From assembly GCF_021483235.1 (NCBI RefSeq), contig NZ_JAKEEC010000007.1, forward strand, positions 1-64,000: a DNA stretch of 64,000 nt, in the 5' to 3' direction. Below are positions 25,141-58,224 of this stretch, piece after piece (the stretch's first letter is position 1; every line of letters starts with the position of its first letter). The notes beneath the pieces were generated by a model, which searched no databases, had not been told where the DNA came from, and saw only the letters and a program-made list of their open reading frames with translations. This DNA is from Arthrobacter alkaliphilus. GTDB taxonomy: Bacteria > Actinomycetota > Actinomycetes > Actinomycetales > Micrococcaceae. Both the position numbers and the translations under genes were made by a program.

Positions 25141-25267
25141 GCGGTAACGTCCGGCGAGCCGGCGACATTATTTGCGGACGTGGGCGGTCCATAGGACAAT
25201 TGACAGTTGTGGTGGCCGTCACCGGCACCACAACCCGATTCACACAACTGAATACGCCTCTGATCTG

Positions 25268-25460
25268 CGGCGGGAGAGTCCTGCAGTCATGTGATGCAGG
25301 CGCCGTAGGAGCAAATCCTCCCCAGGAATCTCTCAGGCCCATGCACCGCCGCGGCAAGGCAACTCTGGAAAGCAGCACGCTGACGCGTGCTCACCGACGG
25401 TGCAAGCGGAACGGTGCCACAAGCACGGTTCCGCGGAAACTCTCAGGTCCAATACAGAGC
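25268..25460 (+). ncRNA. Tandem glycine riboswitch
   Basis: Two consecutive glycine aptamers precede gcvP. The first runs from CGGCGGGAGAG through GGCGCCGTAGGAGCAA to AATCTCTCAGG (about 25268-25346). The second runs from ACTCTGGAAAGCAGC through CACCGACGGTGCAAG to GGAAACTCTCAGGTCC (about 25361-25451). The paired CTCTCAGG 3' ends and GGAGAG/CTCTGG 5' ends are diagnostic of the gcvT-type motif. Glycine binding normally turns on expression of the glycine cleavage genes, consistent with gcvP starting about 60 bases downstream. Confidence 0.93.
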
Positions 25461-25519
25461 GGGGAGGGACCCAATTAGCTGTGGCGCACCATGCGTCGCC
25501 TTATTTATGGAGTTCCCTC

Positions 25520-55285: not shown

Positions 55286-55981
55286 ATGACGGATCTGATC
55301 GATACCACTGAGATGTATCTTCGGACCATTTTGGAGCTTGAAGAAGAGAACATCGTGGCTCTTCGCGCACGCATCGCTGAGCGCTTGCGGCACTCCGGCC
55401 CCACCGTCTCCCAGACGATCGGACGGATGGAGCGCGACGGACTGGTTGTTGTGTCCGACGACCGGCACCTCGAGCTGACTGAAATGGGCCGGAAGCGCGC
55501 CACCGAGGTCATGCGCAAGCACCGGCTCGCCGAGCGGCTCCTGGCAGATGTCATCGGGCTCGACTGGGCCTATGTCCATGACGAAGCGTGCCGGTGGGAG
55601 CACGTCATGAGCGAGCGCGTGGAACGCCGGCTCTATGAGCTGTTGGACCACCCCACGGAGTCGCCCTACGGAAACCCCATTCCAGGACTTGAAGCACTCG
55701 GCGGGGCCGCGTCCCACGCCTTCACGGACGGCGTGGTCAACCTTCTCGACGCCATGAATGAATACGCACCTGAACACCGGGTCACGGTCAGTCGGCTGGC
55801 CGAACCGATCCAAGTGGAACCGGAACTTCTCCTCCAGCTGGACGAGGGCGGAATCCGCCCCGGCGCCAGGGTGTCCTTGGAACGTGTCGGGGAGTACATC
55901 TCGGTCCGAGTGCCCAATATCGACGGGGCGCTGGAGCTGCCGCCCGAGGTTGCATCGCACGTCTTTGTCACCGTCGCCTAG
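55286..55981 (+). CDS. DtxR/IdeR-family metal-dependent regulator
   Basis: 231 residues with GAGGAG 9 bases before the ATG. The N-terminal winged HTH (LIDTTEMYLRTILELEEE and HSGPTVSQTIGRMERDGLVV) leads to a dimer and metal domain (EVMRKHRLAERLLADVIGLD, with the cysteine/histidine/glutamate pattern in DEACRWEHVMSERVE). A C-terminal SH3-like domain follows. Size and motifs equal DtxR/IdeR, an Fe(2+)-dependent repressor. It probably binds the boxes at 7534 and 36793. MntR-type specificity is less likely but not excluded. Confidence 0.9.
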   Translation: MTDLIDTTEMYLRTILELEEENIVALRARIAERLRHSGPTVSQTIGRMERDGLVVVSDDRHLELTEMGRKRATEVMRKHRLAERLLADVIGLDWAYVHDEACRWEHVMSERVERRLYELLDHPTESPYGNPIPGLEALGGAASHAFTDGVVNLLDAMNEYAPEHRVTVSRLAEPIQVEPELLLQLDEGGIRPGARVSLERVGEYISVRVPNIDGALELPPEVASHVFVTVA

Positions 55982-56087
55982 CCGCCACGCCGTGGCAGCC
56001 GAAAAAGATAACGGAATTATTACCGCAGGGGCTTAATCCCCTATAGTTAAATACCGGCGCCGATACCAAAGCGTTACCTGATCTGAA

Positions 56088-56311
56088 GCCGAGTTCTGCC
56101 AGCGGATCAGGGTGATTAGTCCATTCACTGGCAGAAGCGGAGGAACCACCATCGGCTGTCGAAAGACGGCCTTGGGGTGAAGTCCGCAGCGGGAGAGCAA
56201 ACAAAGCCAGGCCCCTCCGGGTGCCTTGCTTTTCGTGCCCTTCGCGCGGACCGGGTCCACGATCTCTCTGGCCCGAATCCGACAGCTAACTTCGCAGGCT
56301 TGCCAGAGAGG
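56088..56311 (+). ncRNA. c-di-AMP riboswitch (ydaO/yuaA) ahead of M23 peptidase
   Basis: Conserved pieces in order are TTCTGCC...GGCAGAAGCGGAGGAACC, CTTGGGGTGAAGTCCGC, GGGAGAG, and CCGAATCCGACAGCTAAC with TTCGCAGGC, the signature of the ydaO c-di-AMP aptamer. CTCTCTGGC (56264-56272) pairs with GCCAGAGAG (56302-56310), which includes the gene's GAGAGG ribosome site. It should lower expression of the wall hydrolase when c-di-AMP is high. Bases 55982-56087 before it hold the leader and presumably a promoter. Confidence 0.9.
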
Positions 56312-56317
56312 AAAACC

Positions 56318-57136
56318 TTGAGCACGCAGAACACCAGGGGCCGCAGGCGCGCGTCCGGTCCTACTGCTGAACTGCGGAGCACAACCGCCGTCACGTACGA
56401 CCGGCCCCGCGATCCCCAACGCGAACTTCGCCGCCGCAAGGGTCCCTTGCGGCAGATGGCCGACTTCGCGGCCGCGAGCGGAGCGGGGCAGAAGGCCGGA
56501 CTGGCCCTTGCCGCCACCGGCCTCATCCTCACGGTCGCGATGCCGGGCGCCGGAGCCGTGACGGCCGCGCCCGAATCGAATGTGACCGCCTCGGCCGCGG
56601 GCACGCAGCCTGAGATTGCCGCCGCGGCAAGCGCCACCATCGACTTCAGCCGCGCCGCTGTGTCAACCACGGCGGATCCGGACGGCAAGCTCAAGCAGCT
56701 CTTGAGCGCGCAGTCGGTCGGCACCATCAAGACGTCTTCGTCGAAGGGCACCCTCGGGGCGCCGCTGGACACCCTGGCTACGGCCTCGCCTTTCGGATAC
56801 CGCGTGAACCCCATCACGGGCGGTTTGGGCGAGTTCCACCGAGGCCAGGACTTCGTGGCCCAGTGCGGCACCCAGGTCCACGCTGCCGCGGCCGGCAAGG
56901 TCACTTTCGCCGGCTGGCATCCGTATGGCGGAGGAAACCGCATTGTGGTGGACCACGGCAACGGCCTCGAAACCACCTACAACCACTTGTCCTCGTTTAA
57001 CGTCCAGGTGGGCCAAACGGTCAGCCGCGGCGACGTCATCGCACTGAGCGGCACCACCGGCGCTTCTACGGGCTGCCACCTCCATTTTGAAGTCATGGTC
57101 AACGGCGACGTCGTCGACCCCCTGGGCTGGCTGTAG
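56318..57136 (+). CDS. M23 family peptidoglycan endopeptidase
   Basis: 272 residues from the TTG at 56318 (GAGAGG 6 bases upstream), since the longer frame from 56177 runs through the riboswitch. A basic N-terminus and one hydrophobic segment (61-80) export it. The LytM/M23 domain has zinc ligands H174 and D178 (HRGQD), H223, and H254/H256 (CHLHFEV). It would cut peptide cross-links in the wall. It is controlled by c-di-AMP, which ties wall remodelling to osmotic state. Confidence 0.92.
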   Translation: MSTQNTRGRRRASGPTAELRSTTAVTYDRPRDPQRELRRRKGPLRQMADFAAASGAGQKAGLALAATGLILTVAMPGAGAVTAAPESNVTASAAGTQPEIAAAASATIDFSRAAVSTTADPDGKLKQLLSAQSVGTIKTSSSKGTLGAPLDTLATASPFGYRVNPITGGLGEFHRGQDFVAQCGTQVHAAAAGKVTFAGWHPYGGGNRIVVDHGNGLETTYNHLSSFNVQVGQTVSRGDVIALSGTTGASTGCHLHFEVMVNGDVVDPLGWL

Positions 57137-57222
57137 CCAATCCGATGGAAGTCTCTCGCATGCTTGTCACGCTCCGTGATCTGAATGTGACATTCGGCCA
57201 AAACTCATGTACCGTCTAACAC

Positions 57223-57247
57223 GCACCAACTTTTAGACAGTTGGTGC
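57223..57247 (+). terminator. Hairpin after the M23 gene
   Basis: GCACCAAC and GTTGGTGC form an 8-bp perfect stem with a 9-base loop. There is no T-tract, so it may be a rho-independent-like hairpin or a part of the next leader. The gap 57137-57222 shows nothing else. Confidence 0.5.
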
Positions 57248-57257
57248 ACTCGGGTGG

Positions 57258-57441
57258 ATTGCCTAGCTCTGCCACTGCCCGAGGTTCCGTTCGCAAAACA
57301 TCGTCTGGCAGAGGCGGGGGACCCACTTTTGGTCATCTTCACCGATGGCCTTGGGGTTAAGTCGCACAACTTCCGGTAGGGAGAAGTGTGGCCGGATGAC
57401 TCCCATCCGAATCCGACAGCTTACCTCGCGGGCATAGGGAG
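57258..57441 (+). ncRNA. c-di-AMP riboswitch (ydaO/yuaA) ahead of NlpC/P60 gene
   Basis: The same ordered blocks as the upstream riboswitch are present: CTCTGCCA...TGGCAGAGGCGGGGGACCC, CCTTGGGGTTAAGTCGC, and CCGAATCCGACAGCTTACC with TCGCGGGC. CTCCC (57400-57404) pairs with GGGAG (57437-57441), overlapping the GGGAGAGG ribosome site. It controls the second wall hydrolase in the same way. Confidence 0.9.
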
Positions 57442-57453
57442 AGGCCTCTTAAC

Positions 57454-58224
57454 GTGTCTTCACGCTCTACTGTTGCGCGCCATCGTGCCGCGGTCACCAA
57501 GACCAACTCGCTAGCCGTTATCGCCAAGACTGTCGGCAGCAACGCCGGTGGCGTAGGCCGTCAGGCAGCCGTTATCGCGGCTGCTTCCGGTCTGGTGCTC
57601 ACTAGCGGTATCGCAGCAAACGCTGCAGAAACCAATGTCCCCCGCGAGTCCACTTCGACTTCCGCCCTGGAAGTCCAGTCGATCGCCCAAGCCAGCATTT
57701 CGGCTGACTCGTCTGTCGCAATCAAGTACGAGCGCCCGGTGGTTTCCACCGAAGCTGCTCCGGTTGTCGAAGCTCCGGTCGCCACGCAGGAAGCCGCTCC
57801 GGCTCCGGCTCCCCAAGCTGCAACGGGTGCCGCCACCGGCTCCGCAAAGCTTTCTGTGACTGCTGCTGTTTCCCCCGCCACGAAGGTTGCCAGCGGCAAG
57901 GGCGCAGCGATTGCTGCCGCAGCTTACGCTCAGCTTGGCGTTGCCCAGGACTGCACCGCCTTGGCTTCGAACTCCCTGGCCGCTGTTGGCATCAACTTCC
58001 ACGGCTGGCCGGCAGACTACCTCTCCCTTGGCCGTACGGTCAGCGCCGCTGAAGCGCAGCCGGGAGACCTCGTCTACTACCAGAACGGTGGCATGGGCAT
58101 GGCTCACATCGCCGTCTACGTCGGCAACGGCATGGCGGTCCACGGCGGCTGGAACGGTGGCACCACCGCCCTGTACAGCGTCAACGTCGGCTCCGGCCCG
58201 GTCTTCATCCGCGTTGGTGGCTAA
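57454..58224 (+). CDS. NlpC/P60 family peptidoglycan hydrolase
   Basis: 256 residues from a GTG with GAGG 9 bases upstream. A signal-like segment (about 36-57) leads to a Pro/Ala/Thr-rich region. The NlpC/P60 domain (about 148-256) has catalytic C167 (VAQDCTAL), H218 (MAHIAVYVGNG) and H230. It cuts D-Glu-mDAP/Lys type bonds in the wall. It shares its riboswitch class with the upstream M23 gene. Confidence 0.92.
   Translation: MSSRSTVARHRAAVTKTNSLAVIAKTVGSNAGGVGRQAAVIAAASGLVLTSGIAANAAETNVPRESTSTSALEVQSIAQASISADSSVAIKYERPVVSTEAAPVVEAPVATQEAAPAPAPQAATGAATGSAKLSVTAAVSPATKVASGKGAAIAAAAYAQLGVAQDCTALASNSLAAVGINFHGWPADYLSLGRTVSAAEAQPGDLVYYQNGGMGMAHIAVYVGNGMAVHGGWNGGTTALYSVNVGSGPVFIRVGG

Follow-up and report, generated by a model that had tools for sequence, protein, structure and literature searches.

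Adjacent M23 and NlpC/P60 genes of Arthrobacter alkaliphilus follow predicted translational c-di-AMP riboswitches with an additional 5' helix, P0

Two adjacent wall-hydrolase genes in a 64,000-nucleotide stretch of Arthrobacter alkaliphilus DNA (hereafter the window) are each preceded by a leader of the c-di-AMP riboswitch family RF00379, in which a strand of the aptamer pseudoknot holds or overlaps the Shine–Dalgarno (SD) sequence. A second inverted repeat surrounds P1 in both leaders and begins 5' of the Rfam match; we call it P0. Taken as a whole, these features are probably best explained by translational OFF switches of an actinobacterial subtype that carries P0, so that each hydrolase gene would have a c-di-AMP switch of its own.

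The RF00379 covariance model matched the DNA before the M23 gene with 61.1 bits (E 1e-11) and that before the NlpC/P60 gene with 49.5 bits (E 1.7e-08), both above the gathering cut-off of 38 bits, and Pfam confirmed the two genes (Table 1). The first-pass annotation of this DNA had placed a ydaO-type leader before each of them, and these matches bear it out. Both leaders start 5' of the Rfam match, with the P1 5' strands at 56086-56090 and 57260-57264 and further structure upstream. The P1 closing helix is present in each (AAGCC:GGCTT and TGCCT:GGGCA). GAG or AG separates its 5' strand from the P2 hairpin, whose loops measure 25 and 31 nt in leaders 1 and 2, respectively. Among relatives, 93.1% (70 leaders) and 83.0% (93 leaders) of P1 cells are paired, compared to maxima of 90.3% and 77.2% in 300 shuffles. 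Judged by RF00379 score, P1 and the aptamer pseudoknot, both leaders are c-di-AMP riboswitches, for which ligand binding is predicted.

Table 1. Elements of the two leaders and the genes that follow them (window positions).
Feature	Position	Strand	Remarks
Leader 1, RF00379 c-di-AMP aptamer match	56108..56315	+	61.1 bits
Leader 1 P0 5' strand CCTGATCTG	56077..56085	+	pairs with 56103-56111; covariation
Leader 1 P1 5' strand AAGCC, in the loop between P0 and P2	56086..56090	+	complementary to 56297-56301
Leader 1 P2 5' arm TTCTGCCAG	56094..56102	+	complementary to 56128-56136
Leader 1 P0 3' strand CGGATCAGG, at the start of the P2 loop	56103..56111	+	
Leader 1 P2 3' arm CTGGCAGAA	56128..56136	+	
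Leader 1 pseudoknot 5' strand TCTCTCTG	56263..56270	+	same place in relatives
Leader 1 conserved core CCGAATCCGACAGCTAACTTCG	56273..56294	+	
Leader 1 P1 3' strand GGCTT	56297..56301	+	
Leader 1 pseudoknot 3' strand CAGAGAGG, holds the SD	56304..56311	+	
M23 peptidase gene, TTG start	56318..57136	+	Pfam PF01551 Peptidase_M23, 112.1 bits
Leader 2 5' hairpin GCACCAAC-TTTTAGACA-GTTGGTGC	57223..57247	+	one base before P0; no U run after it
Leader 2 P0 5' strand CTCGGGTGG	57249..57257	+	pairs with 57275-57283; covariation
Leader 2 P1 5' strand TGCCT	57260..57264	+	complementary to 57430-57434, one G-U
Leader 2 P2 5' arm CTCTGCCA	57267..57274	+	
Leader 2 P0 3' strand CTGCCCGAG	57275..57283	+	
Leader 2, RF00379 c-di-AMP aptamer match	57282..57448	+	49.5 bits
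Leader 2 P2 3' arm TGGCAGAG	57306..57313	+	
Leader 2 pseudoknot 5' strand CTCCC	57400..57404	+	
Leader 2 P1 3' strand GGGCA	57430..57434	+	
Leader 2 pseudoknot 3' strand GGGAG	57437..57441	+	overlaps the SD GGGAGAGG (57437-57444)
NlpC/P60 gene, GTG start	57454..58224	+	Pfam PF00877, 46.5 bits

The whole genome holds four RF00379 matches and one gene with a DAC domain (c-di-AMP synthase). Among named records, the most similar leaders come from Paenarthrobacter, Arthrobacter and Sinomonas (L118, L151 and L148). Two leaders on the same strand, with cores 1130-1148 bases apart, were found in 21 of 30 genus loci picked by the length of the M23-type leader; the paired arrangement is thus shared within the genus, and adjacent matches occur in other genera of the family too. 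The TTG start recurs in 35 of the 41 M23-type leaders listed. More broadly, many Actinomycetota have c-di-AMP riboswitches before genes for wall-lysing enzymes, among them the Rpf-type genes of Streptomyces and its relatives.

According to the first-pass annotation, the sequence just before the conserved core pairs with the SD in both leaders, and exact complements were indeed found: CTCTCTGGC (56264-56272) with GCCAGAGAG (56302-56310) in leader 1, and CTCCC with GGGAG in leader 2. The boundaries of the first stem needed adjustment. By the Rfam alignment, the P5 stem takes in the final G and C of CTCTCTGGC, leaving TCTCTCTG:CAGAGAGG as the free pseudoknot. The idea of a separate SD-masking device was not borne out, as the stem is the aptamer's own pseudoknot, found in the crystallised aptamer and in Bacillota. 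In the printed sequence of the crystallised ydaO aptamer, CUCCUUCG precedes the core and CGAAGGAG follows P1, the same place as the window stems, and in its passages on the pseudoknot the authors call it stable (PMC5393176). Bacillota leaders have it as well, with a mean helix score of 13.5 versus 10.4 when their 3' sides are shuffled. The stem is thus long established in the aptamer and no addition peculiar to the window; as a family pseudoknot, it is expected to pair in both leaders. As the counter-case to its own proposal, the annotation had named a stem that is part of a constitutive aptamer core, unchanged by ligand. This case is half borne out: the stem is an aptamer element, but the docking section of a 2024 review describes the pseudoknot as an expression platform that docks and can be separated from the ligand-binding core (PMC10907184). 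That section lists ydaO among the switches that dock and hide the ribosome-binding site (RBS), with superposing aptamer and full-length structures (PMC10907184).

On energy, the two window stems differ. The leader 1 duplex was matched by 1% of 100 shuffles and that of leader 2 by 18%. Taken by itself, the latter stem, of 5 bp, is thus not significant; what lends it weight is the conserved spacing to the start codon in genus leaders. Single-sequence folds from the Rfam boundary, which cannot show pseudoknots, gave z values of -3.34 and -0.46. When folds subject to the same restriction were begun further 5', leader 1 formed the stem of the earlier annotation and leader 2 did not.

To place these leaders among their relatives, we compared 287 distinct core matches (284 with enough flank) from the same genome, the genus, the phylum and named genomes. 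Here, "class" denotes named Actinomycetota records plus genomes from other genera that share the order or class, and "deep" denotes other classes of the phylum. SD overlap was scored on 73, 93, 30 and 29 leaders, out of 74, 98, 36 and 58 distinct ones (genus, class, deep and Bacillota, respectively), after setting aside those lacking the helix or lacking a start codon and SD within 140 nt. Duplicate leaders were counted once, with de-duplication keys that differ slightly between the duplex-energy, Bacillota-comparison and SD-overlap counts.

An overlap of 3 nt or more between the SD and the pseudoknot strand was counted in 72/73 genus, 58/93 class, 17/30 deep and 9/29 Bacillota leaders, and in both window leaders the SD lies within the putatively regulated helix. 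The remaining 35 class leaders overlap the SD by 1-2 nt (17/93) or not at all (18/93); of the 34 that were typed, 18 belong to another subtype and 16 to the P0 subtype described below. In some M23 leaders, the SD comes right after the end of the pseudoknot. The distance from the pseudoknot to a start codon is 4-14 nt in 73/74 genus, 74/98 class, 14/36 deep and 12/55 Bacillota leaders, compared to means of 14, 13, 17 and 19% in other 11-nt windows of the same DNA (genus maximum, 34%). Terminator-like hairpins within 200 nt after the core were seen in 21/57 Bacillota, 0/95 class, 1/74 genus and 4/36 deep leaders, and a search of 55900-57700 for terminator-like sites found none (1.6 in shuffles). 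These data show that the 3' strand of the pseudoknot is usually the SD in actinobacteria, and the comparison shows a single aptamer strand put to two uses, against a terminator in Bacillota and as the SD in Actinomycetota.

Translational masking is therefore likely in the window leaders, as far as can be judged from their sequence. The first-pass proposal of translational control, and not only of termination, fits the SD overlap and scarcity of terminator-like hairpins in the genus; it also fits the nlpC switch of Corynebacterium glutamicum, for which the reporter section of the paper describes less protein, the same amount of mRNA and a second gene that is spared (PMC9960051). The same account puts c-di-AMP-dependent translation of nlpC in print and proposes that CTCC:GGAG pairing involves the RBS (PMC9960051). 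For S. coelicolor, RBS blocking is ascribed to Haiser 2009 and Block 2010 (PMC8079986). Masking itself is thus already published for C. glutamicum and proposed for Streptomyces.

The evidence for selection on the pseudoknot depends on how pairing is scored. In a register-free comparison, P5 loops matched their own partners more closely than swapped ones, a result reached by 0/500 permutations in each of the genus, class, deep actinobacterial and Bacillota sets, with a significance that is inflated by relatedness. Within 42 genomes, the leader's own partner was better 96 times and the paralogue's 18 times, with 24 ties. Column counts for the pseudoknot are weak, and the spacer before the 3' strand varies in length. 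In NlpC-type leaders, no pseudoknot pair changed on both sides and partner swapping made no difference (176/500). M23-type leaders pass the register-free swap test (0/500), with a column score at the level of shuffles (63/500). The earlier statement that the two stems differ in sequence yet keep pairing thus stands insofar as pairing is present in both, but as covariation it is weak: none of the changes in NlpC-type leaders is two-sided, and the M23-type score is unremarkable. A duplex-energy test gave p ≤ 0.05 for 24/82 genus, 18/99 class (7/44 + 11/55), 14/36 deep and 12/58 Bacillota leaders; this test was blunt because its 5' window took in P5.

In P0, nine bases that lie 0 or 2 bases before P1 pair with the nine that open the P2 loop. 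Duplex energies of P0 and P2 are -12.8 versus -13.9 kcal/mol in leader 1 (for most of the P0 strand) and -12.7 versus -12.9 kcal/mol in leader 2. In the window leaders, P0 has no base in common with P1 or P2, so all three helices can coexist. The predicted strand order P0 5', P1 5', P2 5', P0 3', P2 3' is that of an H-type pseudoknot, with the P1 strand in the first loop. The P0 3' strand begins exactly where the P2 5' arm ends (offset 0) in 71/92 family and 43/65 class leaders, which suggests coaxial stacking. By a finder that demanded a helix at that place, the arms of P2, which would cross P0, measure 7-9 bp in 96/98 and 67/70 leaders. The RF00379 ydaO/yuaA model has the same core, P1, P3-P5 and aptamer pseudoknot. 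Unlike the window leaders, however, it lacks P0, with ten unpaired positions before P1, and its P2 is short, whereas the long P2 loops here open with a P0 strand.

We infer that P0 is transcribed as part of the leader. A promoter scan around both leaders found none. By eye, TATAGT (56042-56047) and TACCGT (57210-57215), roughly 30 and 34 nt upstream of P0, are candidate -10 elements; L118 and L151 have the similar TACGGT and TAAGGT with much the same spacing. Leader 2 also has a hairpin directly 5' of P0 (Table 1). Such stems of at least 6 bp were found in 24/39 NlpC leaders versus 8.5% of shuffles, and in many the sequence changes while pairing is kept; this hairpin may form the 5' end of the mRNA.

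We next asked how widely P0 is distributed, requiring at least 6 of 7 pairs, a linker of 8-11 nt and an offset of -2 to 3 from the P2 arm. In leaders of the subtype whose P3 begins RCGG or similar, P0 was present in 157/168, comprising 92/98 from the family (genus included) and 65/70 others of the class; with shuffled upstream DNA, the rule was satisfied by 16.4% and 23.5%, respectively. Upstream parts swapped between leaders, which keeps composition, satisfied the first version of the rule in 40.3% (family) and 36.8% (class). P0 was near the shuffle level in class leaders with the other P3 form (2/14 versus 21.8%), in deep leaders (6/26 versus 23.3%) and in other phyla (3/7 versus 21.4%), and at that level in Bacillota (9/41 versus 20.3%, and 0/1). 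The P3 rule was later widened to admit leaders with one G fewer; the narrower rule gave 92/97, 61/65, 6/32 and 5/25. Leaders with no recognisable P3 start were omitted (5 family, 9 deep actinobacterial, 4 actinobacterial, 2 other and 13 Bacillota), as were 13 more lacking P2 (9 actinobacterial of the other subtype, 3 Bacillota and 1 deep actinobacterial), and one metagenome-assembled genome with no phylum assignment (L113) sits in the deep group. Since P0 had first been seen in family members, we took a held-out set of 66 further loci from the order and left the rule unchanged. P0 was found in 53/62 of these leaders, compared to 24.5% with shuffled and 35.3% with swapped upstream parts, after setting aside six matches already seen and one of the other subtype that lacks P0. 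Within the subtype, P0 is present in 12/12 Streptomyces Rpf-type and 9/9 MSGRHRK-type leaders.

Three alignments were used to assess covariation in P0. In 72 leaders (70 from the class plus the two of the window), 70.0% of P0 cells are paired versus 49.5% in shuffles; 131 cells have changed on both sides, compared to 62.0, and the covariation score is 0.501 versus 0.201. In 41 leaders taken as NlpC type, 81.6% of cells are paired (shuffled, 66.4%), with a score of 0.564 versus 0.275, and all nine P0 pairs have changed on both sides somewhere. The corresponding values for 32 leaders taken as M23 type are 75.7% versus 59.8% and 0.406 versus 0.190, and here the number of P0 pair types did not exceed that of shuffles (109/500). 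None of 500 shuffles reached the pairing percentage or score of any alignment, and sliding the partners lowers both. One caveat is that some rows of the NlpC alignment were typed from the leader alone, locus L305 has its two rows interchanged between it and the M23 alignment, and 15 of the 88 distinct family references, mostly of other gene types, are absent from both. Covariation thus indicates that P0 is a real helix, common to many actinobacteria. The SD lies inside the pseudoknot in 49/65 class leaders with P0 versus 4/23 of the other subtype, an association that may be explained by common descent.

The C. glutamicum nlpC switch shares with the window leaders the ligand class, the kind of gene, the translational OFF behaviour predicted here and the CTCC:GGAG pairing put forward by its authors, but the parts of that paper devoted to the switch do not equate the pairing with the conserved aptamer pseudoknot and make no mention of P0 (PMC9960051). 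In a Bacillota example, as far as the cited account goes, the pseudoknot strand pairs with the terminator stem and not with the ribosome site (PMC9337991). Riboswitches with interdomain docking, such as preQ1-III and cobalamin, resemble the proposed mechanism in that the ligand-bound aptamer docks a downstream RBS strand and hides it; cobalamin does so by a kissing loop and preQ1-III by another fold, and the docking section of the review has no P0-like helix (PMC10907184). A description of P0 was not found in the relevant parts of the open-access literature searched; it may be drawn in Block 2010, Nelson 2013 or three structure papers. P0, a 5' module absent from the Rfam model, may therefore be new, unless the primary papers already draw it.

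In the mechanism we propose, the P5 loop of the ligand-bound fold would pair with the RNA right after P1, forming the pseudoknot, and the ribosome could not bind because the 3' strand of that pseudoknot is the SD. When c-di-AMP falls, the pseudoknot would open and the hydrolase would be made; a terminator would play no part. P0 and P2 would stack as one rod early in transcription, keeping the P1 5' strand ready, and P1 and the adjoining masking pseudoknot would close once the 3' end has arrived and ligand is bound. Ligand dependence in the window leaders and joint formation of P0 and P2 are presumed in this scheme, and P0 would serve to brace P1 and the pseudoknot and to guide their folding early on. 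The specific claim that the P0-P2 unit works in the switch, forming first and setting the timing and c-di-AMP level at which P1 and the SD-masking pseudoknot close, is tentative, and we regard it as possible rather than probable.

Other readings of P0 are conceivable. Ligand-free RNA might keep P0 and thereby block P1, with c-di-AMP exchanging P0 for P1 plus P2, after which the SD-masking pseudoknot would form. The loop of a P0 hairpin would hold both the P1 5' strand and P2 5' arm, and the similar duplex energies of P0 and P2 make an exchange between them conceivable. We nevertheless think such an ON-state role unlikely, given that the bases of P0 are distinct from those of P1 and P2 in the window leaders and that the prevalent offset of 0 resembles coaxial stacking, for which mutually exclusive folds would have no need. 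Alternatively, P0 could be a DNA operator, the inverted repeat of a repressor, and no RNA helix at all. It is close to the presumed transcription start, and inverted repeats are common near such starts. However, the sequence of P0 is not conserved, with as many as six pair types at a position, its place is constant with respect to the RNA helices P1 and P2, and P0 is at shuffle level in Bacillota and the other actinobacterial subtype, all of which makes an operator the least credible of the readings considered.

Two further alternatives concern the mode of control. A copy of the SD within the aptamer (GGAG, ~20 nt upstream) might trap the CUCC strand when ligand is absent; a decoy partner of this kind was reportedly suggested for C. 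glutamicum by Reich et al. Decoy-like stretches are present in both window leaders (GGGAGA in leader 1, GGGAG in leader 2), but they are not enriched over shuffles, with p ≤ 0.05 for 0/41 M23-type, 0/47 NlpC-type, 4/98 other class and 2/58 Bacillota leaders. We consider the decoy very improbable and dropped it. The leaders might instead act mainly on transcription, by attenuation or loss of untranslated mRNA, with SD masking as a side effect. For Streptomyces rpfA, the cited text reports premature transcription termination upon c-di-AMP binding (PMC10117811). Against this stand the lack of terminator-like sites in 55900-57700, their rarity in relatives (0/95 and 1/74) and, in the published reporter results, the unchanged mRNA level of C. 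glutamicum nlpC (PMC9960051), and a mainly transcriptional effect here seems rather improbable. We also entertained the idea that rpfA of Streptomyces lacks SD masking and hence responds at the level of transcription. This was rejected, as the SD of leaders before genes with the Rpf domain (by Pfam) falls within the pseudoknot or next to it.

Should P0 be real, constructs begun at the Rfam boundary are incomplete, and measurements of binding or termination made with them may mislead. The absence of P0 from such constructs could bear on the conflict between the transcriptional control reported for rpfA and the translational control reported for nlpC.

Several minor observations were made along the way. 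An inverted repeat, GGGGCTTAATCCCC (56028-56041), lies just 5' of the M23 leader and is a possible operator or terminator remnant. The sequence AATGTGAC (57184-57191), found 5' of the NlpC leader, also occurs before the L118 and L151 leaders and is a possible regulator site. A second actinobacterial subtype (L011, L013-L015, L018, L021, L022, L026 and L028) has P3 CCGGGGAACC and a short P2; its pseudoknot strand ends GGAAGG, directly before a separate AAAGGAG, and the gene of L011 is an M23 gene by Pfam. In L232, L233, L235 and L236, from other classes of the phylum, c-di-AMP leaders precede likely universal stress proteins and not wall enzymes, an assignment made by Pfam for L236 only and from the first residues for the other three. 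Elsewhere in the window, a tandem glycine riboswitch was found at 25261-25467 (65.4 and 37.7 bits).
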